In this document: positions 10,026 to 58,678 of the stretch, one piece after another
Layout: the number at the start of each line of letters is the position of its first letter
Position numbering within the stretch: the first letter of the stretch is position 1
Origin: Gottfriedia acidiceleris
GTDB taxonomy: Bacteria > Bacillota > Bacilli > Bacillales > Bacillaceae_G
DNA: 64,000 bases
Direction: 5' to 3'
Assembly: GCF_023115465.1 (NCBI RefSeq)
Contig: NZ_CP096034.1
Coordinates: 1,240,001-1,304,000, forward strand
Notes under the pieces: generated by a model
Database searches by the model: none
Seen by the model: the letters and a program-made list of their open reading frames with translations, nothing else
Told to the model about the DNA's origin: nothing
Made by a program: the position numbers and the translations under genes

Positions 10026-10724
10026 TTATTTTCCTTTCTCACGATACTCTTTTGGAGTAATGCCTTCAATTTTGCGGAATAAAGTACTGAAGTAATGCTG
10101 ACTATTAAACCCTGAGTTTTCTGCTACATCGGATATGTTCCAATTTGGATTATTTGTTAAATATCGCTTGGCTGCTTGTATTCTATAGTCTATTAAATAT
10201 TCTGAAAACGATACACCTACTTCTTCGTGAAATTTTCTACTTAAATAAGTATGATTTGTGTGAACTTCACGAGCAACGTCAGAAAGAGAAAGTTTTTCAG
10301 TGAAATGATCATGAATATATAAAATAGTTTGATGGATTAAACTAGAATATTGGTTCGATGTGTCGGTGTCACTATATTGAGATAAAACTTTATATAATTC
10401 ACTTTCTATAATTGGCTTAGTTAAATAGTCTAGAACGCCGATTCGGATTGACTGTTGGGCATAATCAAAACTTTGATAGGCTGTAACCATAATAATATCT
10501 ACTTCTTTATTTAGTGCTCTAAGCTCTTCACCAAACTCTAGTCCTGAACGTCCAGGTAGATTGATATCTAAAAACGCAATATTAATTTTATGATTTTGAT
10601 TAATTGTGATTGCTTGGCATGCATCAGCAGCTTTAAAAAATTTCCATAATGGAAACATATTTTTTATCAAATATTCCATCTGTTCAAGCTCTAATGGTTC
10701 ATCATCTACTAATAATACATTCAA
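10026..10724 (-). CDS. Two-component response regulator, receiver + AraC DNA-binding domain (YesN type)
   Basis: A 232-residue transcription regulator. The receiver (about 1-120) has the acidic pair in LLVDDEP, a phosphoacceptor Asp in FLDINLPG, Thr in MVTAYQSF and Lys in YLTKP. The C-terminal AraC domain has two helix-turn-helix units (LSLSDVAREVHTNHTYLSRK and WNISDVAENSGFNSQHYFST). It starts at a TTG that overlaps the kinase stop (TTGA), with GGAGGG upstream. By proximity and domain type it is the best candidate to bind the 21-bp-spaced direct repeats at 15.7, 20.5 and 22.4 kb. Confidence 0.93.
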   Translation of the reverse strand: MNVLLVDDEPLELEQMEYLIKNMFPLWKFFKAADACQAITINQNHKINIAFLDINLPGRSGLEFGEELRALNKEVDIIMVTAYQSFDYAQQSIRIGVLDYLTKPIIESELYKVLSQYSDTDTSNQYSSLIHQTILYIHDHFTEKLSLSDVAREVHTNHTYLSRKFHEEVGVSFSEYLIDYRIQAAKRYLTNNPNWNISDVAENSGFNSQHYFSTLFRKIEGITPKEYREKGK

Positions 10725-11482
10725 TTTACTTTCCCTCCTTTACTCTCATAGATAAGTGGCCAAACGACCTTAACATTTGTTCCTGATTCATTTGAAGTAA
10801 TCAGTACATGTCCACTATTACCAAAATATAGTTGTAATCTCTTTTTTATATTGTCTAATCCATGGCCTTCTTGATTAGAAAAAGAATTCGTCATTCCCAT
10901 TAAACCATTATCAATAACTTCTAAACAGACTAACTCGGAATCTTGATAAAATCGAATATGCAGTAAAGCCTCTCCAACCTTTTTTTCTAAACCGTGTTTA
11001 AATGAATTTTCTACTAAGGTTTGCAAAATAAAAGGGGGAACTAGCGCATCATATAAATCTTTTTGACAATCTAACTGTGTTTTAAGACGATCTCCAAACC
11101 GTAGATTTTGAATGTCTAAATAATATTGGGTATATTGTATTTCTTGATTTAACGGAATTAAAGGTTCTGATGATTTATATTTAAATTTTAAAAATTGAGA
11201 GAACGTTTCTAGGGCTCGGATTAATTCCGAAGTTCGATTTAAACGCGCTAAGCTTAATATGACATTAAGTGTATTAAATAAAAAGTGCGGTTGAATTTGC
11301 TGATTTAATTTATTGTATTGAGCTTCTTGTAATGCTTGTTCTAACCGAATTTCTCTATTTTTATTTTCAAGTAAATCAATTCTTTTTTCAAAGATAAACA
11401 AAAATAATAAAGCAATAGCTCCCATAATAGGAGCTAAAATAAATAGCATAATTAGTAAAGTAAAACCCTCGTAACTAAGCAT
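10721..11482 (-). CDS. Sensor histidine kinase (LytS/YesM-type)
   Basis: A 253-residue kinase with one N-terminal membrane segment followed directly by a short coiled coil and the His_kinase domain (QQIQPHFLFNTLNVIL, phosphorylated His in PHFLFN). The ATPase domain shows the N box LVENSFKHG, then VIDNGLMG and GHGLDNIKKRLQ. It has no extracellular sensor domain. The ATG at 11482 is preferred to an upstream TTG because TTGAGG itself is the likely ribosome-binding site. It is translationally coupled to the downstream regulator. Confidence 0.9.
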   Translation of the reverse strand: MLSYEGFTLLIMLFILAPIMGAIALLFLFIFEKRIDLLENKNREIRLEQALQEAQYNKLNQQIQPHFLFNTLNVILSLARLNRTSELIRALETFSQFLKFKYKSSEPLIPLNQEIQYTQYYLDIQNLRFGDRLKTQLDCQKDLYDALVPPFILQTLVENSFKHGLEKKVGEALLHIRFYQDSELVCLEVIDNGLMGMTNSFSNQEGHGLDNIKKRLQLYFGNSGHVLITSNESGTNVKVVWPLIYESKGGKVN

Positions 11483-11792
11483 GAAGAACCTCAAATAGTT
11501 TTTTTGATAATATTTTTAATTTTTTTGAAATCTATATTTATAAATGGGTGAATTGCAACTAAAGTTGCTCCAATAGAATGGTACATAATCTGATCATCCC
11601 ATTGGAGCTTCTTAGAGAAGTCTCTGGCTTTCGCACCTTTTTCCATAGGAGCCTTTGAACATCTTGAGCCAAACAACTTTCGATTTATAATCCAAGTTTA
11701 TAAGCATTTAATATTTTTAATAGAAGTAGAATTTCTACATGGCAGGATCAATTCTCTTCTTTTCCTTCACTTCATGCCTATAAGAATACTAT
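11483..11792. other. Intergenic region upstream of the kinase operon
   Basis: No convincing gene. On the minus strand this is the 5' region of the kinase operon and the 3' flank of the ABC operon. It contains several short inverted repeats: GCAAC/GTTGC at 11559-11572, CTCCAAT/ATTGGAG at 11574-11608, and CTTCT/AGAAG near 11610. A 61-codon TTG frame in this region (11491-11676) lacks a clear ribosome-binding site and is not called. Confidence 0.4.
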
Positions 11793-12779
11793 TTAATTAA
11801 TTATGTGACAAGCAACTTGATGATTTTGCTCAGATATTTTTAATTCAGGTGTTTGTGTTTTGCAAATATCAATCGCGAAAGGGCATCTTGTGTGAAAACG
11901 ACAGCCGCTTGGAGGATTGATTGGAGAAGGTACATCTCCTGTTAATATGATTCTTTCTCTTTTTTGTACCGGGTTCGGTACTGGAATAGCAGATAATAGG
12001 GCACGTGTATAAGGATGCTGCGGTTTTTCGAATATAGATTTTTTATCGGCAATCTCAACAATTTTTCCTAAATACATTACCATTACTCGGTCAGAAATAT
12101 GTCTTACTACACCTAAATCATGTGAGATAAATAGAAAGGTAAGTGAGAATTTTTTCTGTAACGATTTTAATAAGTTTAATACTTGAGCTTGGATTGAAAC
12201 ATCTAGAGCAGAAACTGCTTCATCACAAATGATTAGTTTTGGATCAACTGCAAGTGCACGTGCAATTCCGACGCGCTGACGTTGACCACCACTAAATTCA
12301 TGAGGATAACGCTCCATTGCTTCTGGTCTTAACCCAACATGTCCTAATAATTCCTCAATTCTAGCTTTACGTTCTTCTTTTGGAACGACATTTTGAATGG
12401 CTAATGCTTCACCTAAAATTTGTCCAATTGTTTGTCTAGGGTTAAGTGAGGCAAACGGATCTTGGAAGATTACTTGTAAATCCTTTCTTATTTTACGCAT
12501 TTCTTTTTTTCCTAAGCTTAATAAATCTTTTTCCTTAAAATGAATGCTTCCACTTGTAGGCTCGTCCAATCTTAGAATGGCTCTACCAGTAGTAGACTTA
12601 CCACAACCGGATTCTCCAACGATACTTAAAGTTTCACCCTCATAAATGTGGAAGCTAATATCATCTACAGCTTTTACGTGATTAACGGTTCTTCCTAAAA
12701 CGCCACCTTTAATTGGAAAGTATTGTTTTAAATGATCTACATTAAGTAGTATTTTTTTATCCACTAGTTGTAATGCCAT
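11793..12779 (-). CDS. Oligopeptide/dipeptide-type ABC transporter ATP-binding protein (DppF/OppF-like)
   Basis: A 328-residue ATPase that would sit on the inner face of the importer. Walker [10 protein letters not shown], signature [14 protein letters not shown], Walker [13 protein letters not shown] and H-loop FISHDLGVV are all intact. The C-terminal oligo_HPY extension with a cysteine cluster ([14 protein letters not shown]) is typical of peptide/nickel transporters. The ATG overlaps the stop of the preceding ATPase gene (TAATG). It is the last gene of a four-gene minus-strand operon. Substrate specificity is set by the binding proteins, not here. Confidence 0.94.
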
Positions 12780-13807
12780 TATTCAATCCCTACTTTCTCT
12801 TTGATGGTATGATCTGATTCCCATTGTGATGTGTACATCCAACAACTGACTTCAGTATTTTTGTCGAGTGTTTGTAAATCTGGTACTGATTCATGACACA
12901 TTGGCTTTGCATGTGCACAGCGTGGGGCAAAACTACAGCCCTTAGGCATATTGTATGGACTAGGTACAGTACCAGGAATTGTTGTTAATTCATCTTGATC
13001 CATATCAAGACGAGGAAGAGAGTTTAATAACCCGATTGTGTATGGGTGCTTAGGGTTATTATAAAGTTCTTTTGCTGATGTATATTCAACAATTCTTCCA
13101 GCATACATGACAGCCACTCGATCACAAGTCTCATAAACGACACCTAAATCATGCGTGATTAAGATTACGGCTGTACCTAAATCTTTTTGGAGTGATTTAA
13201 TTAATTCCAGAATTTGAGCTTGAATTGTCACATCAAGAGCGGTAGTCGGTTCATCTGCGATTAGCACTTCAGGATGACAAGCAAGTGCCATTGCGATCAT
13301 AACCCTTTGTCTCATTCCACCACTAAGTTCATGTGGTTCTTGCTTTGCACGTTTTTCAGGAGAAGGAATCCCTACCAGTCGCAGCATTTCAACTGCTTTA
13401 TCCCAGGCTTCCTTTTTGCTTAATTTTTGGTGAAGACGAATCGCTTCTGCAATTTGTTCTCCAGCTGAATAAACAGGATTTAAAGATGTCATTGGTTCTT
13501 GAAAAATCATTGAAATTTCATTACCACGAATGGAACGCATTTGCTTTTCAGTTTTTGCTAGTAAGTCTTCACCTTTAAAAAGAATACTACCACCAGTTAT
13601 TTTTCCTGGAGGAGAGGGGATTAATCGTAAAAGGGATAATGATGTAATACTTTTACCACTTCCAGATTCTCCAACTATTCCAAGTGTTTCACCTTTTTTT
13701 AATTTAAAGCTAATTCCATTAACCGCCTTACTTATTCCTTCATCTGTATAAAAGTAGGTTTGTAGATTTTTAACCTCAAGAATTGTTTCATCAAATTGTT
13801 TTTTCAT
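12779..13807 (-). CDS. Oligopeptide/dipeptide-type ABC transporter ATP-binding protein (DppD/OppD-like)
   Basis: A 342-residue partner ATPase of the DppF-like protein. Walker [10 protein letters not shown], signature [14 protein letters not shown], Walker [13 protein letters not shown] and ITHDLGVV are intact. The C-terminal region carries the [14 protein letters not shown] cysteine cluster of the family. GGAGGT precedes the ATG at good spacing. It lies between the permease gene and the second ATPase gene in the operon. Confidence 0.94.
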
Positions 13808-13819
13808 AGTAGTACCTCC

Positions 13820-14740
13820 TTAATTCAAGTCAACTCGTTTATTAAAGTAACGGTAGAGAATATCAACAGCTAGATTCATAAATACAAAGATAACCGAAGC
13901 GATTAATACGCCACCTTGAACCATAGGTAAATCCCTTGTCCTAATTGCATCAACAATTAATCTACCAAGTCCATTAATTGCAAAAACTGACTCTGTTAAA
14001 ACGGTACCACCAAGTAATGCACCAAACTGTAGACCAACAACAGTAATAACTGGTATTAATGCATTTTTTAAACCATGTTTGTAAATAATGATATGTTCCT
14101 TTAAACCTTTTGCTCTTGCTGTACGCATATAATCTTGACGAACAACTTCTAACATACTTGATCTAGTCATTCTAGCTACAATTGCAGCACCACCTGCACC
14201 TAATGTTAATGCTGGTAGTACCATATGTTTAAACGTTCCCCAACCAGCAACTGGAAATATATGAAGATTAACTGAAAAGAAGTAGATTAACATTAAACCA
14301 AACCAGAAACTTGGTAAAGAGATTCCTAGTAAAGCGACAATCATAATTGAAATATCAGCTGCTGAGTATTGTTTAGTTGCTGAAATAATTCCTGCAAGCA
14401 TACCAAGTACGACTGTAATGAAAATACTAGCTAGTGCAAGTTCAATTGTAATTGGCAAACGAATCATAATCTCATCTAATACCGGACGATTATTTCGAAG
14501 CGATTCGCCAAAATCACCTTGTAGTACATGGTATACATAATCGAAATACTGAATCACGACAGGACGATCAAGTCCAAGTTGATGACGAATCATTTCAATC
14601 GTTTGTTTCGTAGCACCTTCCCCAGCAAGTAGAGTTGCAGGATCACCAGGAACCATTTGCATAATTAAAAAAACGACTAAACTTACACCAAGTAAAACTG
14701 GAATAGTTTGTATAATTCTTCTGACAATAAATAGAAACAT
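13820..14740 (-). CDS. Peptide-type ABC transporter permease (DppB/OppB-like)
   Basis: A 306-residue inner-membrane permease with about six helices. It begins with the family hallmark RRIIQTIPVLLGVSLVVFLI and MVPGDPA. The EAA loop that contacts the ATPases lies in MTRSSMLEVVRQDYMRTARAKG. It is second in the minus-strand operon, after the DppC-like gene; the usual order is B before C. Confidence 0.93.
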   Translation of the reverse strand: MFLFIVRRIIQTIPVLLGVSLVVFLIMQMVPGDPATLLAGEGATKQTIEMIRHQLGLDRPVVIQYFDYVYHVLQGDFGESLRNNRPVLDEIMIRLPITIELALASIFITVVLGMLAGIISATKQYSAADISIMIVALLGISLPSFWFGLMLIYFFSVNLHIFPVAGWGTFKHMVLPALTLGAGGAAIVARMTRSSMLEVVRQDYMRTARAKGLKEHIIIYKHGLKNALIPVITVVGLQFGALLGGTVLTESVFAINGLGRLIVDAIRTRDLPMVQGGVLIASVIFVFMNLAVDILYRYFNKRVDLN

Positions 14741-14752
14741 TTACTTTCCTCC

Positions 14753-15655
14753 TTATTTTTTCATCCTTGGATCAAGAGCATCTCTTAGACCATCACCGAA
14801 AATATTAAATCCTAAAACTAATGTTGAAATGGCAATACCCGGAAATAAGGCAAGATGGGGTGCACTAAATAAATAATCACGCCCACTACTTAACATTGCT
14901 CCCCATTCTGGAGATGGAGGTTGAGCACCTAATCCGAGATATGACAAGCCTGCTGCTGAAAGGATAGCTGTAGCAAGTTTTAATGTAGCTTGGACAATTA
15001 TTGGTGAAAGAATATTCGGGAGTATATGTTTAAAAATGATTGTTGCATCAGTTGCACCTAAAGCGCGAATGGCATCAATATATTCAAGTTTTCTGACGGA
15101 TAACGTAGATCCTCTAACGATACGTGCAAACATTGGGACTGAAAAGATACCAACAGCAACCATAACATTAATTAGACTAGGACCTAGTGCACTAATAATT
15201 GCAAGCGCTAATAAAATACCTGGGAATGCAAGTAAAACATCAACAACCCTCATAATGATGGTGTCCATCCATTTTCCGTAATAACCTGCTATTAACCCGA
15301 GTGTGATTCCGAAAATTGCTCCAAATAAAACAGATACGAAACCGACAGAAATTGAAAGACGACTGCCATAAATGATTCTACTTAAAATATCTCTTCCTTT
15401 ATCATCTGTACCCATCCAATGCTCTAGTGATGGAGGTTGCAGCTTATGCATTAAATCAATTGCAAAAGGATCCTTGGGCGAAATGAGTGGTGCAAAAATA
15501 GCTACTAAAATATAAAAAAGTACAATATAGGCTCCAACTAGTGCCAATTTATTTTTTTTAAACTTCTTATAAAATACTTTCCATCTTCTTAGTTTTTGAG
15601 ATTCTTTTTTTTCTAATTTGATTTCATGGTTATTTAATACAATCTCTGTTTTCAT
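14753..15655 (-). CDS. Peptide-type ABC transporter permease (DppC/OppC-like)
   Basis: A 300-residue permease and the first gene of the C-B-D-F operon. It has the N-terminal OppC_N segment, the family motif HWMGTDDKGRDILSRIIYGS, and an EAA-type loop in VRKLEYIDAIRALGATD. AAAAGGGGG lies upstream of the ATG. It is transcribed divergently from the first substrate-binding-protein gene across a ~210-bp region. The plus-strand direct repeats found there have no visible counterpart facing this operon. Confidence 0.93.
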   Translation of the reverse strand: MKTEIVLNNHEIKLEKKESQKLRRWKVFYKKFKKNKLALVGAYIVLFYILVAIFAPLISPKDPFAIDLMHKLQPPSLEHWMGTDDKGRDILSRIIYGSRLSISVGFVSVLFGAIFGITLGLIAGYYGKWMDTIIMRVVDVLLAFPGILLALAIISALGPSLINVMVAVGIFSVPMFARIVRGSTLSVRKLEYIDAIRALGATDATIIFKHILPNILSPIIVQATLKLATAILSAAGLSYLGLGAQPPSPEWGAMLSSGRDYLFSAPHLALFPGIAISTLVLGFNIFGDGLRDALDPRMKK

Positions 15656-15725
15656 GTTTTTCCCCCTTTTCTTTGTTTAAATTTATTCAAAATTAGAATT
15701 GAAGTAAATATAATGCGGAAAAGCA

Positions 15726-15788
15726 GTAAAGATAATTTAAAAACGAGTAAAGATTCTGAAAATATAAAATTTTATTTTTTTTTATAAT
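15726..15788 (+). promoter_or_regulatory. Direct-repeat activator site and promoter of the first binding-protein gene
   Basis: GTAAAGAT occurs at 15726 and again at 15747, exactly 21 bp apart. TATAAT begins at 15783, 36 bp from the second box. There is no TTGACA-like -35 at the right distance. The same spacings recur at 20511-20573 and 22390-22452. Confidence 0.8.
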
Positions 15789-15864
15789 TTGAATAAGCCT
15801 ACGAACTCAAGAAAAATGGTGAACATGAGATTATAGGGAAAGTATTAAGAGGAGGAAGAAAACA

Positions 15865-17421
15865 ATGAAGAGAAAGACAGCTGGAGTATTATTTGCATCA
15901 TTATTAACAATTTCGACTGCGCTTGCAGGATGTACATCTAACCAAACAAGCAGTAGTGCAACAGGAACAAAAGCAAAAGCAGGAGGAACTTTGGTTGTAG
16001 CTAGATTATCTGATGCGACTACATTAGATCCACATTTTATTACTGATATACCATCAGCAAACGTTGTATATGAAAAGGTATATGAAACATTAGTTGAACC
16101 AGATAAAAATATGGAGCCAAAACCTCTTTTAGCAACAGAATGGAAGCAAGTAGATAATGTGACTTGGGAGTTCAAATTACGACAAGGCGTTAAGTTCCAA
16201 GATGGATCCCCATTTAATGCAGATGCAGTTAAAACAAATTTTGATCGAGTACTTGACCCAAAAACTGCATCACCTCAGGCTGGTAAATTTGAAATGATAA
16301 AAGAAGTTAAAGTGGTAGACGATTCAACTGTTCAATTTATTTTGAAATACCCATATGCTCCACTTTTATCAATTTTAATGAGTAATGAAGGAAGTATTAT
16401 TAGTCCAAAATCGATTAAAGAAAACAGTGATAAAATTGGGCGAAATCCAATTGGAACTGGTCCTTATGTATTTAAATCTTGGAAATCAGGAGAAGAAATT
16501 AAAATTGAAAAAAATAAAGATTACTGGGGTAATAAACCTAAAATTGATGGTGTAGTCTTTAAAGTTGTTCCTGAAGATGCTACAAGACTAGCAATGATTG
16601 AAACTGGTGAAGCGCATGTTACTGATCAAGTGCCTGTAACAGAAATCGATCGTATTGAAGCTTCTGACACAATGGATTTATACCGAACAGATGGACTAGC
16701 TGTTGAATATTTAAGTTTCAATGTTAAGAAAAAACCATTTAATGATGTTCGTGTCCGTAAAGCGATTGCACATGCAATTGAAGTAGATTCAATTATTAAA
16801 GGTGTGTATAACGATGTTGGAACAAAAGCGAATTCAACAATGAGTCCGAAAGTATTTGGATATGATCCGAATCTTAAAGGCTATAATTACGATATTAATG
16901 AATCTAAAAAGCTATTAAAAGAAGCAGGAATTAAAGATGGTCTTTCATTTACTCTTACAACTAGTGACCGTAAAGAAAGAATTAATATGGCTGAAGTTAT
17001 TCAATCTCAATTAAAAGGTATTGGTATTAATGTGAAAATCCAAGTTCTTGAATACGGAGCTTATATTGATGCAATCGCAAAAGGCGAACATCAAGTTGCA
17101 ATTGGTGGATGGGGTAATGCTACTGGTGATGGCGATTATAATCAATTTAACTTATTTGATAGTAAATCCCAAGGTGCAGCAGGAAATAGTTCATTCTATA
17201 GTAACCCTAAAGTTGATAAATTAATTGAATCAGCTCGACAAGAAGCAGATAGCGAAAAACGTAAAGATTTATATGCTCAAGCACAAGAAATTGAAAATGA
17301 AGAAGTACCTTATGTTCCTATTCGTAACTATGAACATTTAGCAGTTACTGGCTCATCAGTTAAAGGACTTTGGTTAAACCCAGCAAGCTATTTAATGCTT
17401 GAAGATGTAACAGTGAAATAA
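15865..17421 (+). CDS. ABC transporter substrate-binding lipoprotein (SBP_bac_5), copy 1
   Basis: A 518-residue extracytoplasmic binding protein for the divergent ABC transporter. The lipoprotein signal peptide ends in the lipobox LAGC (mature Cys at about residue 22). The body has the family features RLSDATTLDPHF, PLLATEWKQV, WEFKLRQGVKFQDGSPFNAD and GTGPYVFKSW. A GAGGAGG site precedes the ATG. It is closely similar along its whole length to the protein at 20617-22182. Family members bind peptides, glutathione, nickel or other small molecules; the ligand here is unknown. Confidence 0.92.
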   Translation: MKRKTAGVLFASLLTISTALAGCTSNQTSSSATGTKAKAGGTLVVARLSDATTLDPHFITDIPSANVVYEKVYETLVEPDKNMEPKPLLATEWKQVDNVTWEFKLRQGVKFQDGSPFNADAVKTNFDRVLDPKTASPQAGKFEMIKEVKVVDDSTVQFILKYPYAPLLSILMSNEGSIISPKSIKENSDKIGRNPIGTGPYVFKSWKSGEEIKIEKNKDYWGNKPKIDGVVFKVVPEDATRLAMIETGEAHVTDQVPVTEIDRIEASDTMDLYRTDGLAVEYLSFNVKKKPFNDVRVRKAIAHAIEVDSIIKGVYNDVGTKANSTMSPKVFGYDPNLKGYNYDINESKKLLKEAGIKDGLSFTLTTSDRKERINMAEVIQSQLKGIGINVKIQVLEYGAYIDAIAKGEHQVAIGGWGNATGDGDYNQFNLFDSKSQGAAGNSSFYSNPKVDKLIESARQEADSEKRKDLYAQAQEIENEEVPYVPIRNYEHLAVTGSSVKGLWLNPASYLMLEDVTVK

Positions 17422-17430
17422 GTAATTCAA

Positions 17431-17468
17431 TGAAACAGCATAATTAAATTATGCTGTTTCAGTTTTTA
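17431..17468 (+). terminator. Terminator after the first binding-protein gene
   Basis: A 14-bp perfect stem (TGAAACAGCATAAT at 17431-17444, ATTATGCTGTTTCA at 17448-17461) has a 3-base loop and is followed by GTTTTT. Since no separate promoter is evident before the next gene, it probably attenuates, giving more binding protein than hydrolase. Confidence 0.8.
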
Positions 17469-17496
17469 AGGAGAAATTTGTATTAGGAGGATAAAA

Positions 17497-18975
17497 ATGA
17501 TTGATTTGCTATTAGTAAATGGAACTGTTATCACAATGGACACAGAAAGAAGAATTATCGAAAATGGCTCCGTTGCTATTCACAATGGGAGAATACTAGA
17601 CATTGATTTCACCGAAAACTTGAAAACTAAGTATGAGGCGAAAAAAGTAATTGATTGTAGTCATCAATGTATTTTACCTGGATTAATAGATGTTCATGGT
17701 CATGGTGGTCATTCAATGTTTAAAACAATCGCGATGGAGAATATCGATTTTTGGATGCCGATTATGACAAATACGTATAAGCATTACGTGACGGATGATT
17801 TTTGGTATTACGAAGGAAAGCTGTCAGCACTTGAACGACTGAAAGCAGGCATAACAACAGGGGTTAGTGTTTTAGGCTCAGTACCGAGATCGGATGATCC
17901 AATATTTGCGATAAACCATGCAAAAGCTTACAACGAAGTAGGAGTTCGTGAAGTAGTATGTACTGGTCCTTGTAACCCACCATGGCCACATTCATTTAGT
18001 AGATGGGTTGATGGGAAAAGAATTGAGAAAGAAGTTACTTATGAAGAAGTGCTTAAAGGAGCAGAAGCTGTTATTGAGGCATTAAATCACGCAAATGATG
18101 ATCGAACAAGAGCCTTTATTACGCCATTTGTTATTGTAACGTCTGTTGATCCATCATATCCAACTTCTCCTGATCGACTATACGGGTTAACAAAACATGA
18201 TCTTTATCAAGCTAAAATAATAAGAGAGATTGCTAGGAAATATAATACAAGAATTCATTCAGATGCATTTGGTGGAATGATTCATTTAGCAATTCAAGAT
18301 AAAGAAAATGCGCTATTAGGTCCTGATGTTCATCTTCAGCATTGTCGAGGAATTTCATTCGATGAAGCCAAAATATTAGCTGAAACTGGTACAAATATTA
18401 GTGCTTCTCCTGGTTTTGGGCAAGTAAATGCACGTACACCAATCACAGAATTAATTGAAATGGGAGCAACTGTTGCGATTTCTACAGATGGTACTTCACC
18501 ATCTACGAGCTTTGATTTATTCCAAGCGATGAGGAAAACACAATTTGTACATCAAGCAGCTCTTAGAGACTATTACTATTTACCACCAGGTAAGCTTTTA
18601 GAAATGGTAACAATTGATGCAGCAAAATGTATAGGTTGGGATGATGAAATAGGTTCACTTGAAATGGGGAAAAAAGCAGATGTCATCACAGTTAATCTTC
18701 ATCAACCACATTTGACTCCAGAGTATATGCATGTTCATCGGTTAGTATTTCAAGCTGTGGCAAATGATGTAGACCACGTTATTGTTGATGGAAAATTAAT
18801 TATGGAAGGCAGAAATGTAAATACAGTTCATGAAAGCACAGTTTTAAATGAAGCAAATGAAGAAGCTTTTGCAACGATAAAACGCGCTGGATTAGGAAAA
18901 TATATGCAACCTACAAAGTATTTCTGGGGACATGCTCGTGCCTATATTGACGAGATGAGATATGCTGAAAAATAA
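17497..18975 (+). CDS. Amidohydrolase superfamily protein (TRZ/ATZ-deaminase-like)
   Basis: A 492-residue metal-dependent hydrolase. N-terminal beta sandwich (LLLVNGTVITMD), then the TIM-barrel metal site: HxH in GLIDVHGHGGH, further ligands in RIHSDAF and LQHCRG, and the catalytic Asp in ISTDGTSPST. The C-terminus has GSLEMGKKADVITVNL and HVIVDGKLIMEGR, typical of deaminases/chlorohydrolases. TAGGAGG precedes the ATG. It lies downstream of a binding-protein gene and upstream of a second amidohydrolase, so the two probably act on imported material. The substrate is unknown. Confidence 0.88.
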   Translation: MIDLLLVNGTVITMDTERRIIENGSVAIHNGRILDIDFTENLKTKYEAKKVIDCSHQCILPGLIDVHGHGGHSMFKTIAMENIDFWMPIMTNTYKHYVTDDFWYYEGKLSALERLKAGITTGVSVLGSVPRSDDPIFAINHAKAYNEVGVREVVCTGPCNPPWPHSFSRWVDGKRIEKEVTYEEVLKGAEAVIEALNHANDDRTRAFITPFVIVTSVDPSYPTSPDRLYGLTKHDLYQAKIIREIARKYNTRIHSDAFGGMIHLAIQDKENALLGPDVHLQHCRGISFDEAKILAETGTNISASPGFGQVNARTPITELIEMGATVAISTDGTSPSTSFDLFQAMRKTQFVHQAALRDYYYLPPGKLLEMVTIDAAKCIGWDDEIGSLEMGKKADVITVNLHQPHLTPEYMHVHRLVFQAVANDVDHVIVDGKLIMEGRNVNTVHESTVLNEANEEAFATIKRAGLGKYMQPTKYFWGHARAYIDEMRYAEK

Positions 18976-19006
18976 AATGAAATATTCAAATTCGAAGGGA
19001 GAAAAA

Positions 19007-20494
19007 ATGAAAACGAAGCTAAAGGGAAGATATGTAATTGGTTTTGACGGAACTGAACATATCATATTGGAAAATGCAGAGATTGTATATGAAAAAGATA
19101 CAATTTTGTTTGTTGGCAAAAACTATACGGAAGAAGTAGATCAAGTAATTGACGTTGGAAATGCAATCCTTAGTCCTGGTTTTATAGATTTAAATGCATT
19201 AGGAGACATTGACCATGATATTTTGCATTTAGAAGCGAAATCAATTAGACAAAAAAATCTCCTTTGGTCTGAGGAGTTTGTAAAAAATGGGCATCATGAG
19301 CTAATGAGTGAGGAGGAAGAAGCATTTAAATCTTTATATGCATATTCGCAGCTTATTTTAAATGGAATTACTACTGCAATGCCGATTACATCCGTTTTTT
19401 ACAAAAATTGGGCTGAAACTTATGAAGAATTAGAAGCTGCAGCGAATCATGCTGGAAAACTAGGGTTGAGAATTTACCTTGGACCAAGCTATCAAGCTGG
19501 AATTAGAGTGGTCGAACCAAATGGAAACATCAAAATTCATTGGGATGAAAAAGCGGGCGAGGTAGGTTTAGAAAGAGCAGTAAAGTTTGTTGAAACCTTC
19601 GAAGGTGCATTTGATGGATTAGTCAGAGGGATGTTAGCTCCAGAAAGAATCGAATCACAGACTGAAGAAATTTTGATAAAAACAAAATATTATAGTGACA
19701 AATTAAATGTTCCAATCAAGCTCCATGCCGCGCAAGGAAGTTTTGAATTTAATACAATTTTAAAAGAACACGGAGTTACACCAATTAACTATTTATATAA
19801 TCTTGGATTCTTAGGTCCAAATACAGGAATACCACACGCTCATTTTGTATCGGGCTATAGTGGAGCGAATTACAATATTGATAATGATATATCACTTCTG
19901 AAAGAAACAAATACTACTGTTATCCATTGTCCACTTATTTTAGGAAGACACGGAGAAGGGCTTGAATCGTATGCAAAATATAGGAAGGAGGGAATCAATA
20001 TTGCATTAGGGACTGATACTTTCCCTCCAGACATTTTTCAAAATGTACGCACTGGTAGTATGCTTTCAAGACTTGTAGAAAAAGATGTTGAAGGATCTAC
20101 ATACGCTGATTTCTTCAATTCGATCACTCTAGGAGCAGCGGCATTTCTTAATCGCGAAGATATAGGCCGAATAGCAGTCGGAGCAAAAGCGGATATTATT
20201 GCGATTGATTTAGATGGATTCCATATGGGCGTTATTGATGATCCAATTCGCACAATGTTCGTAAGTGGTTCAGGTAGAGATGTAAAACTATCAATTATAA
20301 ATGGAAGAATTGTGATGCAAGATCAAGTAATTCCTAATCTTGATATGGAGGTATTAAAACAAAAGGGCCAAGTGTATTTTAATAAGATGAAAAGAGGATA
20401 TATGGAAAGAGATTACGAACAACTTCCTGAAAATGATCTATTTCCACCATCTTTTAAAAGGCTTGAATCAATTAAAGAACTAGAAGCAAAGTAA
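19007..20494 (+). CDS. Amidohydrolase-like protein lacking the canonical HxH metal motif
   Basis: A 495-residue protein with the amidohydrolase layout: beta-sandwich start, PGFIDLNALGDIDHD where HxH is expected, later ligand-like positions IKLHAAQG and HAHFVSGYSG, and LGTDTFPPD for the catalytic Asp. The first metal motif reads L-N-A rather than H-x-H, while Asp and His occur a few residues later, so the metal site is altered or single. The ATG at 19007 has AAGGGAGA upstream; a longer frame from 18962 would overlap the previous gene. It is cotranscribed with the upstream amidohydrolase gene. Confidence 0.82.
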   Translation: MKTKLKGRYVIGFDGTEHIILENAEIVYEKDTILFVGKNYTEEVDQVIDVGNAILSPGFIDLNALGDIDHDILHLEAKSIRQKNLLWSEEFVKNGHHELMSEEEEAFKSLYAYSQLILNGITTAMPITSVFYKNWAETYEELEAAANHAGKLGLRIYLGPSYQAGIRVVEPNGNIKIHWDEKAGEVGLERAVKFVETFEGAFDGLVRGMLAPERIESQTEEILIKTKYYSDKLNVPIKLHAAQGSFEFNTILKEHGVTPINYLYNLGFLGPNTGIPHAHFVSGYSGANYNIDNDISLLKETNTTVIHCPLILGRHGEGLESYAKYRKEGINIALGTDTFPPDIFQNVRTGSMLSRLVEKDVEGSTYADFFNSITLGAAAFLNREDIGRIAVGAKADIIAIDLDGFHMGVIDDPIRTMFVSGSGRDVKLSIINGRIVMQDQVIPNLDMEVLKQKGQVYFNKMKRGYMERDYEQLPENDLFPPSFKRLESIKELEAK

Positions 20495-20510
20495 GATAAT
20501 TAAAAAATAA

Positions 20511-20573
20511 GTAAAGAAACTGAAAAAACAGGTAAAGATATTCAAAAATAATTATCAGAATATTTTATATAAT
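20511..20573 (+). promoter_or_regulatory. Direct-repeat activator site and promoter of the second binding-protein gene
   Basis: GTAAAGAA at 20511 and GTAAAGAT at 20532 are 21 bp apart. TATAAT begins at 20568, 36 bp after the second box start. There is no -35 consensus. The geometry is identical to 15726-15788. Confidence 0.8.
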
Positions 20574-20616
20574 TAGATAAATATTTGTAAGACAATTTAA
20601 CAGGGAGGCAGTGCCA

Positions 20617-22182
20617 TTGAAACGAAAATCGGGGATAGGTAAATTTTTTCTAGTACTATTTTCTGCTGTCACAATTACAGGATGTTCATCTAATCAAGAC
20701 GTAGGTACGAAAGCAAATGGACAAATAAATGATTCAAAAGGGGGAAGCACGCTAGTAATTGCTCGGTTATCAGATGCTGAAAATTTAGATCAGCAATTTA
20801 TGTCTACAATCAATGCAGCAAGCGTTACCCATCATAAAATTTACGAAGGTCTAGTCCAACGAGATAGTAATAACGAAATTCAACCAATGCTAGCAGAGTC
20901 ATGGAATCAAATCAATGATAAAACTTGGGAATTTAAACTACGACATGATGTAAAGTTTCACGATGGTACACCATTTAATGCAGAGGCTGTAAAGAAAACA
21001 TTTGATCGTTTATTAGATCCTAAAGTTGCTTCACCAAGAGCTGTTGTTTTCAAAATGGTAAAAGAAGTTAAAGTAGTCGACGAATATACAGTTCAATTTA
21101 TTTTAAGCGAGCCATTCTCACCACTTCTTTCAGTTTTAGCGAATCATGAAGGTGGAATAATAAGTCCTAAAACAATTGATAAATATGGTAAGAATATTAT
21201 TCAAGAACCAAACGGAACAGGTCCATTTAAATTTAAATCATGGTCCCCAGGACAGGATATTATACTAGTTAAAAATGAAGAATACTGGGGTAAAAAACCA
21301 AACATTGATAAGGTTGATTTCAAGGTTGTTCCAGAAGACTCAACAAGAATTTCAATGATTGAAACAGGAGAAGCTCAAATTGCAGAACCACTTCCAATTG
21401 CAGTTATGAATCAAGTTGAATCATCATCGGCTATGGAAGTATACCGAAGTGAAGGTTACGGAACAGAGTATATCGGATTCAATGTAACAAAAAAACCGTT
21501 TAATGACGTACGTGTACGTAAAGCTATCGCTCATGCTGTTGAGATGGATTCGATTATAAAAGGTGTATATAACAATGTTGGTAAAAAAGCGAATTCAGCA
21601 ATGGGCTCAAAAGTATTCGGATACGATGAGCAATTAAAAGCATACAATTACAATTTAAAAGAAGCGAAGAAACTATTAACAGAAGCTGGATATCCAAATG
21701 GATTTGATGCAACGATCCTAACGATGGATAGTAAAGAAAGAGTAAATTTAGCAGAAGTTATTCAATCACAATTAAAAGGAATTGGCATTAATTTAAAAGT
21801 ACAAGTGATGGAATACGGTTCGTTCGTTGAAAAAGTAAATAAAGGACAATCAGAAATGTTTATTATAAGCTGGAGAAACGCAACAGGAGATGCTGATTAC
21901 AATCAGTACAACCTATTCCACTCAGACTCACGAGGCGCTGCCGGAAACACATTCTTTTATAGCAATCCAAAAGTTGATGACTTAATTAATGCTGGAAGAA
22001 AAGAAAAAGACGAAACAAAACGTAAAGAATTTTATGCTAAAGCACAAGAAATTGAAATGGATGATTCACCGTATATTCCCGTAAGAGTAATAGAAAATGT
22101 CGCAGCAATCTCGAAAAATGTAAAAGGCTTCTCAATTAGCCCTTCAGGCTATTTAGAGATTAACGATGTAACAATTAAATAA
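20617..22182 (+). CDS. ABC transporter substrate-binding lipoprotein (SBP_bac_5), copy 2
   Basis: A 521-residue paralogue of the copy-1 binding protein, likely feeding the same permease. The signal peptide ends with lipobox ITGC. Family motifs RLSDAENLDQQF, WEFKLRHDVKFHDGTPFNAE and GTGPFKFKSW are present. I choose the TTG at 20617: GGGAGG at 20603-20608 is 8 bases upstream, whereas the GTG at 20611 would be only 2 bases away, and the TTG product (MKRKSG) aligns with copy 1 (MKRKTA). No ATPase or permease genes of its own are nearby. Confidence 0.92.
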   Translation: MKRKSGIGKFFLVLFSAVTITGCSSNQDVGTKANGQINDSKGGSTLVIARLSDAENLDQQFMSTINAASVTHHKIYEGLVQRDSNNEIQPMLAESWNQINDKTWEFKLRHDVKFHDGTPFNAEAVKKTFDRLLDPKVASPRAVVFKMVKEVKVVDEYTVQFILSEPFSPLLSVLANHEGGIISPKTIDKYGKNIIQEPNGTGPFKFKSWSPGQDIILVKNEEYWGKKPNIDKVDFKVVPEDSTRISMIETGEAQIAEPLPIAVMNQVESSSAMEVYRSEGYGTEYIGFNVTKKPFNDVRVRKAIAHAVEMDSIIKGVYNNVGKKANSAMGSKVFGYDEQLKAYNYNLKEAKKLLTEAGYPNGFDATILTMDSKERVNLAEVIQSQLKGIGINLKVQVMEYGSFVEKVNKGQSEMFIISWRNATGDADYNQYNLFHSDSRGAAGNTFFYSNPKVDDLINAGRKEKDETKRKEFYAKAQEIEMDDSPYIPVRVIENVAAISKNVKGFSISPSGYLEINDVTIK

Positions 22183-22193
22183 TCTGATTTTCT

Positions 22194-22236
22194 GCAAGTG
22201 AAAGTTCATCCTGAATTAGGGGGTGAACTTTCTTGC
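22194..22236 (+). terminator. Hairpin after the second binding-protein gene
   Basis: GCAAG plus GAAAGTTCA (22194-22208, with a 2-base bulge) pairs with TGAACTTTCTTGC (22224-22236) around a 15-base loop. The T-tail is weak. Confidence 0.55.
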
Positions 22237-22389
22237 TTGTGGACAAACATACTAAAGAACAGGTTCATGAGGAAGTCCCAGAGGATCACAGAGTAGGCTA
22301 AAAGAATCATGCCCATGAAAAGCGAGCATCCCGTAGTGGAATTAAGCTACACCTACTTATTTACAACACTAAAAATGAAATAGTAATTA

Positions 22390-22452
22390 GTAAAAATACT
22401 TTAAAAATATGTAAAAATACTAAAATCAAAATATTTCAAACAGATTTATAAT
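22390..22452 (+). promoter_or_regulatory. Direct-repeat activator site and promoter of the three-deaminase operon
   Basis: GTAAAAAT at 22390 and 22411 are 21 bp apart. TATAAT begins at 22447, again 36 bp after the second box start. No -35 consensus. This is the third copy of the same promoter layout. Confidence 0.8.
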
Positions 22453-22496
22453 TAAAAAAGAATCAAAATTTAATGTGGGATGGAAGGGTGAGGATA

Positions 22497-23744
22497 TTGT
22501 CAAAATCTTATTGGTTAACAAATGTGAGTCTGGAAAATGGTTTTACTTATAATGACAATGATGTAATCAACGGAACTGCAACTGGAAAGTACAATGTTAA
22601 AATTGAAAATGGAAAAATTGCCTCTATTCAATTAGTTAGTGATTTAATTACAGATCAATTGCCTCAATATGATGTGCAAGGCCTTCTAATGATTCCTTCA
22701 TTTAAAGAAATGCATATTCATATTGATAAAACTTATTATGGTGGACCATGGAAAGCATGTATGCCAGCAACAAATGGTGTAAAAACACGTATTGAAGAAG
22801 AGCAAATTTTATTACCAAAATTATTACCAACTGCTAAAGAAAGAGCAGAAAAGATGCTAGATTTATTATTAAGTTATGGTACGACTCACATTCGTACACA
22901 TTGTAATATTGATCCAGTTATTGGATTAAAAAACTTAGAAGCAACGCTGCAAGCTTTAGAAGGATATAAAGATAAATTAACACATGAAATTGTTGCATTT
23001 CCACAACACGGACTATTAAGAAGTCACTCTGTTGAACTAGTAAAAGAAGCGATGAAATATGGAGCAAATCTAGTAGGTGGTGTTGATCCAGCTTCAATCG
23101 ATGAAAACATCGAACGTTCTCTTGAGACGATTATGGAAATAGCAGTTGAATCAAATTCTGATATCGATGTTCATTTACATGATCCAGATCATCTTGGATT
23201 ATTTACAATGCAAAGATTAGCAACATTAACTGAAAAAGCAGGTTGGCAAGGAAGAGTTACCGTAAGTCATGCAAGTGGATTAGCGGATCTTTCTGTTCCA
23301 GATGCTACTGCGATTGCTGAGAGATTTGCTGATTTAGGCATTTCAATTACTTCTACGGTTCCAATTTTTAGAACAATTCCTATTCCTTTATTAAGTGAAA
23401 AAGGTGTAAAAGTTGAACTAGGTAATGACAGCATTACAGATCATTGGACACCATTTGGAATTGGAGATAATCTTGAAAAAGTTGGACGACTTGCTGAAAG
23501 ATTTAGATATATTGAAGAAAAAACACTTGCTAATAGTCTTGGATTTATTACAGGCGGAGTAACTCCTTTAAATAATGAAGGTGAAAGAGCATGGCCAAAT
23601 GTAGGAGATGAAGCAAACATCGTACTTGTAGAAGCTACTTGCTCAGCTGAAGCAGTTGCGAGACGAGCAAAGCGAACTGCAGTTATTTTTAAAGGTAATG
23701 TTGTAAGTGGTTCAATTTCAAGTCTTGAATCAACAACAGTTTAA
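22497..23744 (+). CDS. Cytosine-deaminase-like amidohydrolase, paralogue 1
   Basis: A 415-residue CodA/AtzC-like hydrolase. Metal and active-site positions: HxH in MHIHIDKTYYG, His in DVHLHDPDHLG, His in VTVSHASG, Asp in ELGNDSITDHWTPFG. The GTTHIRTHCNIDP and AFPQHGLL motifs match cytosine deaminases. Where CodA has the proton-shuttle Glu (HCDE), this protein has Asp (HLHD). I choose the TTG at 22497 (AAGGGTGAGG upstream); it gives MSKSYWLTNVSL, matching the starts of its two neighbours. An ATG at 22473 has no ribosome-binding site. First gene of three. Confidence 0.87.
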   Translation: MSKSYWLTNVSLENGFTYNDNDVINGTATGKYNVKIENGKIASIQLVSDLITDQLPQYDVQGLLMIPSFKEMHIHIDKTYYGGPWKACMPATNGVKTRIEEEQILLPKLLPTAKERAEKMLDLLLSYGTTHIRTHCNIDPVIGLKNLEATLQALEGYKDKLTHEIVAFPQHGLLRSHSVELVKEAMKYGANLVGGVDPASIDENIERSLETIMEIAVESNSDIDVHLHDPDHLGLFTMQRLATLTEKAGWQGRVTVSHASGLADLSVPDATAIAERFADLGISITSTVPIFRTIPIPLLSEKGVKVELGNDSITDHWTPFGIGDNLEKVGRLAERFRYIEEKTLANSLGFITGGVTPLNNEGERAWPNVGDEANIVLVEATCSAEAVARRAKRTAVIFKGNVVSGSISSLESTTV

Positions 23745-23767
23745 GTTTTATTAAAGAGAGTGATGAG

Positions 23768-25009
23768 ATGAATCAATCATATTGGCTTAAGAATGTAAAA
23801 CTTGATAGCGGATTTGTATTTGAAGATGGAAAAATTGATCGTACTGAGACGACACTATACAATGCACTAATTAAAGATGGGAAAATTGAACAATTACAAT
23901 TGGCTACTTTGCCATTACAAACAGATTTACCAGTTCAGGACGCAAAAAATTTACTGGCTTTACCGGCTTTTAAAGAAATGCATAATCATTTAGATAAGAC
24001 TTATCTTGGACTTCCATGGAAGGCTTGTATTCCTGCTGCAAATTTAGTAGAGAGATTAAATTTAGAAGCGGGTGAACTTGTTGAACTAGCCGAAACAGGT
24101 CAACATCGTGCTGAACAAATGCTTCATCTACTATTAAAAGGTGGCGCAACCCATGTTCGAACACATGTTAATATTGATCCGTATATTGGCTTGAAAAATT
24201 TAGAAGAAATTAAAAAAGCACTTTATACGTATAAAGATAAAATGACCCACGAAATTGTTGCCTTTCCTCAGCATGGATTACTTCGCACAAATAGCAAATC
24301 ATTTATGAAAACAGCGATGAGAGAGGGAGCAACGATTGTCGGAGGATTAGATCCTGGTGGTATTGATCAAAATATTGAACTTTCATTATTTGAAATGGTT
24401 GATCTAGCAGTACAGTTTGATGCTGATATCGATATTCATATTCATGACCCAGGCCATCTTGGTTTTTATACAATAGAAAAATTAGTTTCATTTATTGAAC
24501 AAGCTGGTTGGTATAATCGCGTAGCAGTAAGTCATGCATTTGCGTTAGGTGACGTACCGCAAAATGAATCAGTTGAAATGGCTAGCAAACTAGCAAGCTT
24601 AGGTGTATCAATTATGTCGACTGTTCCGATTAACAGAGTAATGCCTCCTGTTGATTTACTACATTCAAAAGGTGTACAAGTTGCTTTAGGGTGTGATGGA
24701 TTCTATGATTCTTGGTCTCCACACGGAACAGGAGATATGTTAGAAAAAGCAGGTAGATTAGCTGAGAGATACAATTGGAAAGATGAATACGGACTATCTC
24801 AAACATTGCAATTTATTACGGGTGGGTTAAGGACTCTTGATGAAAAGGGTAACCAGTTATGGCCAAATGTAGGAGATGAAGCAAGCATGGTTTTAGTAGA
24901 TGCATCATGCTCTGCTGAGGCTGTAGCAAGACGTGCAAAACGTGCTGCTGTAATTGCTAATGGAAAGATTGTTTATGGTGGACTGAATTACGAATCAGTT
25001 TTGAAATAA
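23768..25009 (+). CDS. Cytosine-deaminase-like amidohydrolase, paralogue 2
   Basis: A 413-residue tandem paralogue of the preceding protein. Active-site positions are MHNHLDKTYLG, DIHIHDPGHLG, VAVSHAFALG and ALGCDGFYDSWSPHG; again HxHD replaces the HCDE of CodA. The conserved C-terminal block (SCSAEAVARRAKRAAVI) is shared by all three copies. The gene starts 23 bases after its neighbour's stop. The differing residue after the metal Asp (Gly-Phe-Tyr rather than Ser-Ile-Thr) suggests a different substrate. Confidence 0.87.
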   Translation: MNQSYWLKNVKLDSGFVFEDGKIDRTETTLYNALIKDGKIEQLQLATLPLQTDLPVQDAKNLLALPAFKEMHNHLDKTYLGLPWKACIPAANLVERLNLEAGELVELAETGQHRAEQMLHLLLKGGATHVRTHVNIDPYIGLKNLEEIKKALYTYKDKMTHEIVAFPQHGLLRTNSKSFMKTAMREGATIVGGLDPGGIDQNIELSLFEMVDLAVQFDADIDIHIHDPGHLGFYTIEKLVSFIEQAGWYNRVAVSHAFALGDVPQNESVEMASKLASLGVSIMSTVPINRVMPPVDLLHSKGVQVALGCDGFYDSWSPHGTGDMLEKAGRLAERYNWKDEYGLSQTLQFITGGLRTLDEKGNQLWPNVGDEASMVLVDASCSAEAVARRAKRAAVIANGKIVYGGLNYESVLK

Positions 25010-25042
25010 TGTAACATTTTATGACAAGAAGGGGTGAAATAC

Positions 25043-26287
25043 ATGAAATCTAGCTATTGGATAAAAAACGCTCGATTAGAAATTGGATTTGAAAAAGAAG
25101 ACGGAAAAGTGGTCGGTACTGCTACTGATTTATTTCATCTTTTTATTGAAAATGGAAAGATTACTCGAATAACAAAAGAAGAAACGGATATTACTAGTGA
25201 ATTTTTTGTTAATGATGCAAACGGTTTACTAGTTTTACCTTCATTTATTGAAAAGCATGTACATCTTGATAAAACATTAATGGGCGATGTATGGAGAGCA
25301 TGTACTCCAACTTCTAGTGTGATAGAACGATTTGAATATGAAAAAATGGCCTTACCGACGATTGCATCAAGTACGAAGGAACGTGCAGAAGCTTTACTTG
25401 AAATCCTTTTAGCTTCAGGATCTACACATGTGAGAACGCATGTTGATATTTACCCAGAGGTTGGAATAAGAAATTTAGAGCAAGTCGAACAAGCACTAAC
25501 TACTTATTCGAACCGACTTAGTTCCGAAGTTGTTGCATTTGCTCAGCATGGTTTGTTAAGATCAAATGCGTTCAATTATGTGAGAGAAGCATTAAGAAAT
25601 GGAGCAGGAATTGTTGGATCAGTTGACCCTGCTGTTGTAGACCAAAATATTGAAGAGTCATTATATCAATTATACAATTTAGCGGTTGAAGCCGATGTAG
25701 ATATCGATATACATTTACACGATCCAGGTCATTTAGGTACATTTACGATGAAGCGTATAGTAGAATTTACTAAGCAAGCAGGGTGGGAAGGCAGAGTAGC
25801 AATCAGCCATGCTTTTGGGATAGGTGATGTTCCAAGAGAAGAAGCATACGAACTAGCAAACAACTTTAGAGACGCAGGAATTTCAATTGTCACAAGTGTA
25901 CCTATTAATAGACAAATGCCTCCAGTTGATTTACTAAATGAACGCGGAGTCGAGGTAGCTGTAGGTAATGATAATATTTTTGATGTTTGGTCTCCACTCG
26001 GCACAGGAGATATTCTTGAAAGAGCGGGAAGACTAGCTGAGCGCTTTAGATGGATTGATGAAGTATCACTAGCACAAACATTAAAATATATTACAGGTGG
26101 CAAAACTCCATTAGATACTGATGGTAACCAAGTATGGCCAAAAATAGGAGATGTGGCTAATCTAGTATTAGTAGATGCAAGCTGTTCGGCAGAGGCAGTT
26201 GCTAGACGCGCAAATCGTAAAGCAGTAATTTATAATGGGAAAGTCGTTAGTGGTTCCTTAAGTGAAGAAAGATTGATTCGTAAATAA
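25043..26287 (+). CDS. Cytosine-deaminase-like amidohydrolase, paralogue 3
   Basis: A 414-residue third tandem paralogue: KHVHLDKTLMG, DIHLHDPGHLG, VAISHAFGIG and AVGNDNIFDVWSPLG, the last closest to the CodA motif. The ATG at 25043 lies behind AAGGGGTGA; an in-frame GTG three codons earlier overlaps that site. The region where the other two have GGPWKAC/GLPWKAC reads GDVWRAC here. Last gene of the operon, followed by a 390-base spacer and terminator. Confidence 0.87.
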   Translation: MKSSYWIKNARLEIGFEKEDGKVVGTATDLFHLFIENGKITRITKEETDITSEFFVNDANGLLVLPSFIEKHVHLDKTLMGDVWRACTPTSSVIERFEYEKMALPTIASSTKERAEALLEILLASGSTHVRTHVDIYPEVGIRNLEQVEQALTTYSNRLSSEVVAFAQHGLLRSNAFNYVREALRNGAGIVGSVDPAVVDQNIEESLYQLYNLAVEADVDIDIHLHDPGHLGTFTMKRIVEFTKQAGWEGRVAISHAFGIGDVPREEAYELANNFRDAGISIVTSVPINRQMPPVDLLNERGVEVAVGNDNIFDVWSPLGTGDILERAGRLAERFRWIDEVSLAQTLKYITGGKTPLDTDGNQVWPKIGDVANLVLVDASCSAEAVARRANRKAVIYNGKVVSGSLSEERLIRK

Positions 26288-58532: not shown

Positions 58533-58678
58533 TGAATCTATTTAACTAAGAATCATTGAAAAATTTAGTAGAGTAATAAAACAAATGACCTAGAAGTAAC
58601 GTGACAAAAGGATAATTCTAAATAAATGATTTTATGAATAAATTTTAAGAATGAAAACTTTAGAAAGAGTTGATTTTT

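Follow-up and report, generated by a model that had tools for sequence, protein, structure and literature searches.

At the Escherichia coli araBAD promoter, AraC has two direct half-sites, araI1 and araI2, that lie 21 bp apart, and the second of these abuts the -35 region. On a fetched copy of that promoter, with what we take to be the identities of the half-sites (I1 and I2) and of the -10 element, we measured 37 bp from the start of I2 to the -10. According to excerpts of PMC6205950, the AraC-type protein CphR of Rhodococcus activates a 4-chlorophenol operon and uses a pair of imperfect direct repeats spanning -35 to -69; each repeat contains two sub-motifs, which are said to be read by the two helix-turn-helix (HTH) elements of the protein. 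In the XydS/XydR system of Clostridium cellulolyticum, as described in parts of a 2013 paper (PMC3572039), a kinase works with an AraC-type response regulator that activates adjacent catabolic genes and whose effector domain binds upstream DNA; the same parts report that no consensus binding site was identifiable for the AraC/XylS family. In another group of sensors, CbrA and CrbS/MxtR, a membrane part like that of the sodium/solute symporters (SSF) is fused to a kinase that controls catabolism (PMC7918813, in part). Here we analyze a window of 64,000 nucleotides (positions 1240001-1304000) from a genome of the genus Gottfriedia, a single contig of 4,690,333 bases (4.69 Mb), in which three promoter sites share a pair of direct repeats at a fixed distance from a TATAAT element. 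We put at roughly 85% the probability that these sites are operators of a class II AraC-type activator and that this activator is the response regulator encoded at 10026-10724 of the window. Among the matches listed from one full-text collection, covering titles and abstracts, no publication dealt with the cluster described here, with a regulon in Gottfriedia or with the motif.

The original prediction had placed the pattern GTAAARAW-N13-GTAAARAW-N28-TATAAT on the plus strand at 15726, 20511 and 22390, and all nine coordinates and the spacings were correct: in all three sites the boxes are exactly 21 bp apart and the second box starts exactly 36 bp before TATAAT. The sites, given as two repeat units and a -10, and the regulator to which we assign them are the following.

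15726-15788, plus strand: site 1, in the divergent region between oppC and SBP1 (a solute-binding protein gene); unit 1 15726-15743, unit 2 15747-15764, -10 TATAAT 15783-15788; proposed promoter of SBP1 and two Amidohydro_1 genes
20511-20573, plus strand: site 2; unit 1 20511-20528, unit 2 20532-20549, -10 20568-20573; proposed promoter of SBP2
22390-22452, plus strand: site 3; unit 1 22390-22407, unit 2 22411-22428, -10 22447-22452; proposed promoter of three Amidohydro_3 genes
10026-10724, minus strand: response regulator; receiver and AraC-type DNA-binding domain with two HTHs (Response_reg 1e-22; HTH_AraC 2.8e-25, two stretches)

All three exact sites fall inside 6.8 kb. They remain the only matches in the window when up to three mismatches are allowed, while shuffled windows searched at that tolerance gave a mean of 0.16 matches and none of 100 shuffles reached three. 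A search of the whole genome found the same three exact matches and none with one mismatch, so the motif does not occur at chance frequency; in its exact form it is confined to these sites. At up to three mismatches the genome has 28 matches (the 3 exact ones, 3 with two mismatches and 22 with three), and the reversed pattern used as a control has 24. The box pair without TATAAT shows no genome-wide excess (61 matches at up to one mismatch versus 95 for the reversed control; 4 of the 61 are exact, and three of these are the window sites), and because the pair alone is not enriched, the signal lies in boxes, spacing and -10 jointly. Further regulon members elsewhere in the genome were sought by rescoring the two- and three-mismatch matches with the matrix described below and were rejected, the best (L004) scoring 23.5 against 46.6-55.1 for the three window sites. 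A separate -35 box was rejected as well, in agreement with what had been claimed, since the best TTGACA match at a spacer of 15-19 bp has 3-4 mismatches. No Rfam family was found across the window at gathering thresholds, and structured RNA in the leaders was set aside.

Each repeat is longer than first noted. The sequence beyond the boxes had been described as conserved in A-richness only, and this must be corrected: in 23 non-redundant sites from several genera, which were picked by matrix so that conservation appears inflated, each box is followed, 13-15 bp from its start, by an AAA block that hardly varies. The unit is thus bipartite, GTMAARAT plus AAA, with the second conserved block beginning 13 bp after the first, and the AAA block of unit 2 occupies the -35 position. 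Two of the 23 are atypical, one (L095 +8070) lacking a -10 and probably being no promoter site, the other (L116 +5169) having its TATAAT shifted by one base. Such a unit suits one AraC-type monomer, because the AraC-type DNA-binding domain has two HTHs; for the same reason the pair of units would fit a direct-repeat dimer. A third full unit 21 bp further upstream was looked for and found no support as a general feature; promoters divergent from oppC have a differing element at -22 instead (below).

Within the genus, 12 of the 13 Gottfriedia genomes in a family sample hold two or three exact copies of the pattern, and site 1 and site 2 are each kept exactly in 12 of 13. G007, the genome with none, likewise has no ortholog of the regulator at a cut-off of E 1e-40 and none of SBP1 at E 1e-170. 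Among the Gottfriedia genomes compared, the present one alone has an exact site 3, and in five of five other fetched Gottfriedia loci that include the Amidohydro_3 genes the matrix finds it at the same place with scores of 33.8-44.6; by eye, the 25 bp before it are unalike in those loci.

We then asked how the pattern is distributed among 397 genomes of the order, taking E 1e-45 as the cut-off for orthologs of the regulator. Orthologs are present in 56 genomes. The exact pattern has 40 matches in 18 genomes, 16 of the 56 with an ortholog and 2 of the 341 without (Fisher p 4e-13, a value that ignores phylogeny and treats related genomes as independent, which they are not). Of these matches, 38 lie in the 16 ortholog-bearing genomes, on the same contig as the ortholog and at most 12.6 kb from it (distances computed for six genomes and read off coordinates for the others); the two in ortholog-less genomes have poor units, scoring 6.7/-1.6 and -0.4/-3.2. 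SBP1 orthologs occur in 42 genomes, 41 of which also carry the regulator, and in the sole SBP1-positive genome without it (G189) the 20 kb scanned contain no site. In all 30 non-Gottfriedia genomes that have both regulator and SBP1, a site is present in the oppC-divergent region, with a lowest score of 23.7. These data also bear on the idea that phased A-tracts or an UP element act here through curvature or contact with the C-terminal domain of the alpha subunit, with no dedicated protein, as A-rich boxes in helical phase and the missing -35 might suggest. We regard this as highly improbable, given that non-A positions (GT at unit positions 0-1 and T at position 7) are among the conserved ones in the matrix-picked sites, that site 3 is kept while its upstream flank is not, and that 38 of 40 exact matches are in regulator-bearing genomes.

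A matrix trained on five Gottfriedia sites allowed more divergent sites to be scored, with a threshold of 22, at 46 non-Gottfriedia ortholog loci. This number leaves out 11 Gottfriedia genomes, loci L080-L091, and L099 (G020, ortholog at E 1e-44); it includes G003 (L092), a genome taken in from the family sample, and the remainder of that contig (L093) was scanned and not counted. The scan covered some 20 kb or less in each relative, and distant targets would escape. At the 21/36 spacing, 35 of the 46 loci reach 22 or more and the mean best score is 32.5; fourteen alternative box spacings gave means of 10.4-20.1, and twenty alternative -10 offsets gave means of 18.1-24.7; no Markov-shuffled locus of 230 reached 22, the maximum being 16.0. 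When unit 2 and TATAAT alone were used as anchors, 35 anchors were found in 47 loci, and the best upstream unit lay at -21 in 34 of them. Two of the 35 passing loci, L140 and L143, have TAAGAT in place of TATAAT. Outside the count, a site is present in nine of nine loci L080-L088 (from Rossellomorea, Peribacillus, Metasolibacillus, Bacillus ndiopicus and Bacillus sp.; lowest score 21.4), and none was found in L089-L091, where identity is 30-37% over part of the regulator, or in the matrix scan of L099.

Where the ortholog lies away from this opp cluster, a site, sometimes a weak one, often precedes other genes instead. In L132, L135, L140 and L143 the site stands before a gene of the acetamidase/formamidase family followed by an APC-type permease (family membership was tested for L132 and L140 and is by resemblance for L135 and L143), and in L134, L136 and L138 it stands before another SBP/opp operon. 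The scores of L132, L136 and L138 (18.1-19.9) are barely over the shuffle maximum, the L138 site has no proper -10 at the fixed place, and the downstream genes of L136, L137 and L139 are known from the tblastn table alone. An additional site at L118:15828 (minus strand, -10 TACAAT) precedes an allantoinase-like amidohydrolase (Amidohydro_1), with downstream genes that resemble, by resemblance only, allantoate amidohydrolase and ureidoglycine aminohydrolase; this hints at ureide or purine nitrogen use. Separately, the regulator orthologs of L097 and L123 lie beside a differing 21-bp repeat seen by eye (TTGCAAA-containing; L097:11645 and L123:8364), perhaps a diverged operator.

The original prediction, which made the receiver/AraC protein the regulator of a single regulon, gains support from these comparisons, since the motif tracks the orthologs across genera, the 21/36-bp geometry is kept while other sequence diverges, and sites, some of them weak, precede different target genes where the neighborhood of the ortholog differs. 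We consider that such a regulon is very probably real and conserved across several genera. A number of observations weigh against this. In G012, whose assembly consists of 800 contigs, there are two exact sites and no regulator ortholog at E 1e-40; the first of these sites lies on a contig of 6.75 kb, 20 bp from the contig end. At wrong box spacings, 1-22 loci still reach the threshold of 22, and 14-27 do so when the -10 offset alone is varied, because one good unit with TATAAT, or a good pair of units by itself, is nearly enough; cleaner evidence than such counts comes from the mean score and the anchored test. Some anchored upstream units are poor (0.5 in L131, 1.4 in L127). Eleven of the 46 loci fall below 22 (L097, L123, L132, L136, L137, L138, L139, L142, L144, L145 and L146), five at 16.3-19.9, just above the shuffle maximum, and six at 1.3-10.0, below that maximum; no site is seen in L097, L123, L142, L144, L145 and L146. 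The cluster is gained and lost as a unit, so that co-occurrence separates the regulator from its targets only in the changed neighborhoods, and several sites there are weak or have an altered -10. Finally, the genome encodes several other AraC-type proteins (16 HTH_AraC domain hits), and the recognition helices sort poorly with site presence: the second helix reads SSQNYFT in four of the six site-less loci and is FNSQHYFS-like in many site-bearing ones, and the site-bearing L132, L135, L140 and L143 depart from FNSQHYFS too. With evidence so mixed, a helix change was not adopted as the cause of the missing sites, and the comparison of site-less with site-bearing loci is only suggestive. The last two points would also favor an arrangement in which another factor, AraC-type or a nitrogen regulator, binds the sites in trans and the adjacent regulator controls something else. 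This seems unlikely to us in view of the 38 of 40 exact sites within 12.6 kb of an ortholog, the sites before different genes when the neighborhood of the ortholog differs, and the absence of a site from the 20 kb scanned in the SBP1-positive, regulator-less genome. TnrA/GlnR-type boxes, moreover, are palindromic, and the boxes here are direct repeats.

The other genes and elements of the locus are listed here.

8703-10022, minus strand: SSF-like membrane protein, 439 aa; transporter or co-sensor
10721-11494, minus strand: sensor kinase (His_kinase/HATPase_c), overlapping the regulator gene by 4 bp
11793-15655, minus strand: oppF, oppD, oppB and oppC, a dipeptide-type ATP-binding cassette (ABC) permease and ATPases
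15681-15692, minus strand: conserved stretch spanning -45 to -34 relative to site 1; in many relatives its reverse complement is TTTTGATAAT
15704-15709, plus strand: additional GTAAAT element located 22 bp upstream of site 1
15865-17421, plus strand: SBP1, SBP_bac_5 lipoprotein, proposed target of site 1
17497-20494, plus strand: two Amidohydro_1 proteins, proposed targets of site 1
20611-22182, plus strand: SBP2, SBP_bac_5, proposed target of site 2
22473-26287, plus strand: three Amidohydro_3 proteins (PRK06846), proposed targets of site 3

On the minus strand the order is oppC-B-D-F, then kinase, regulator and the SSF-like gene, which begins 3 bp after the regulator gene. The first Amidohydro_1 protein resembles AtzA and 5'-deoxyadenosine deaminase, the second belongs to the PRK06151 chlorohydrolase family, and the first Amidohydro_3 protein is AtzC- or cytosine-deaminase-like by PDB match. 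Among the matches listed (at most the best 25 per protein), the only models over cut-off were PRK06151 and PRK06846, both of subfamily type, and no equivalog cut-off was reached. The first Amidohydro_3 gene probably starts at a TTG near 22497, behind a likely ribosome-binding site, and not at the ATG at 22473. Genes for EamA and xanthine/uracil-type permeases follow on the plus strand beyond the Amidohydro_3 genes. A second AraC-type regulator (488 aa, 57031-58497) adjoins a flavin amine oxidase gene (58670-60142).

From the layout of sites and genes we infer a mechanism in which each unit would bind one regulator monomer, whose two HTHs would read successive major grooves, and a dimer, presumably of the phosphorylated regulator, would cover both units. 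At unit 2 the regulator would stand in for the missing -35 and recruit housekeeping RNA polymerase to TATAAT. Phosphorylation would come from the adjacent kinase, possibly under the control of the SSF-like protein or the ABC importer. Two solute-binding proteins and five amidohydrolases/deaminases would thereby be induced together, perhaps for scavenging nitrogen-rich ring or amide compounds. We read this as class II activation because unit 2 covers the absent -35 and because the araBAD and CphR layouts are similar. The regulator might instead bind as proposed and repress basal transcription until a signal arrives, or both repress and activate. AraC-type proteins can repress (PMC4486848, in part), and the -22 element with its divergent operon would permit looping or autorepression; with no -35 to sustain basal transcription, and with units that, as in class II activation, do not extend to the -10, we think either form of repression decidedly unlikely.

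The influence of site 1 and its equivalents may extend to the opposite strand. In a set of 32 oppC-divergent or equivalent promoters, rich in close relatives and reduced to 19 by thinning, 17 of the 32 have GTAAA at exactly -22 and 10 have TTTGT there. Further upstream, at a constant -43, lies a block resembling ATTATCAAAA: ATTATC occurs 13 times, always at -43, and TCAAAA 17 times, always at -39. On the opposite strand the block has the sequence TTTTGATAAT, which could plausibly serve the divergent opp-kinase-regulator-SSF operon as its -10; the resemblance of the 15681-15692 block to a -10 is weaker in this window than in relatives. The array of half-sites may thus serve both directions of transcription.

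Kinase and regulator form a pair of the YesMN type by domain make-up (His_kinase PF06580 with Response_reg-HTH_AraC) and by their adjacent, overlapping genes. YesM-like kinases have an extracytoplasmic sensor/HAMP part, whereas the kinase here is without a recognized one: at E 0.001 only PF06580 and HATPase_c were found and no sensor domain was recognized, and the protein has one hydrophobic segment, at residues 2-39, with the His_kinase domain starting at residue 58. The SSF-like gene, whose own family matches are weak and below curated cut-offs, is beside the regulator in 29 of the 47 loci scanned by tblastn. Together with the sensorless kinase, this suggests a split transporter-sensor. A fuller version, which we offer tentatively and think doubtful, is that the SSF-like permease is the input subunit of the kinase, a split and Gram-positive form of the CbrA type, and that the array reads the signal and fires both the catabolic operons and, through the -22 element and the -10-like block, the divergent opp-kinase-regulator-SSF operon.

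Set beside the known systems, the sites have what characterizes an araI1/I2-like operator, namely direct half-sites 21 bp apart, a proximal half-site at a poor -35, and a bipartite half-site, and the earlier claim that direct repeats two helical turns apart and abutting the -35 region are what AraC-domain activators need holds in that a 21-bp repeat beside the -10 is the araI1/I2 arrangement. The second box lies 36 bp from the -10, compared with 37 bp at araBAD. The units here are A-rich (GTMAARAT...AAA) and the host is Gram-positive, and the regulator has a receiver domain where AraC has a sugar-binding domain. With CphR, as far as the excerpts of PMC6205950 go, the system shares paired direct repeats, a sub-motif for each HTH and catabolic targets; it differs in that those excerpts report no response regulator, a response to 4-chlorophenol or phenol and another site sequence. 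XydR, in the consulted parts of PMC3572039, has 532 aa, and direct and inverted repeats are listed as common to two upstream regions with no site consensus settled, whereas here there is a site logo across genera and a fixed geometry. In contrast to the fused CbrA and CrbS (PMC7918813, in part), the SSF-like protein (8703-10022) and the sensorless kinase (10721-11494) are encoded by separate genes of one operon in a Gram-positive host. The bipartite half-site and rigid geometry can be read across genera, which lets target genes be predicted directly; the logo places uncharacterized amidohydrolases, amidases and ABC importers under one signal, and the pairing of a sensorless kinase with a neighboring transporter-like protein can be tested at this locus. 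The mechanism is already of a known type; what is new relative to these systems is the cross-genus logo, the conserved -22 element facing the divergent operon, and the sensorless kinase beside an SSF-like permease.

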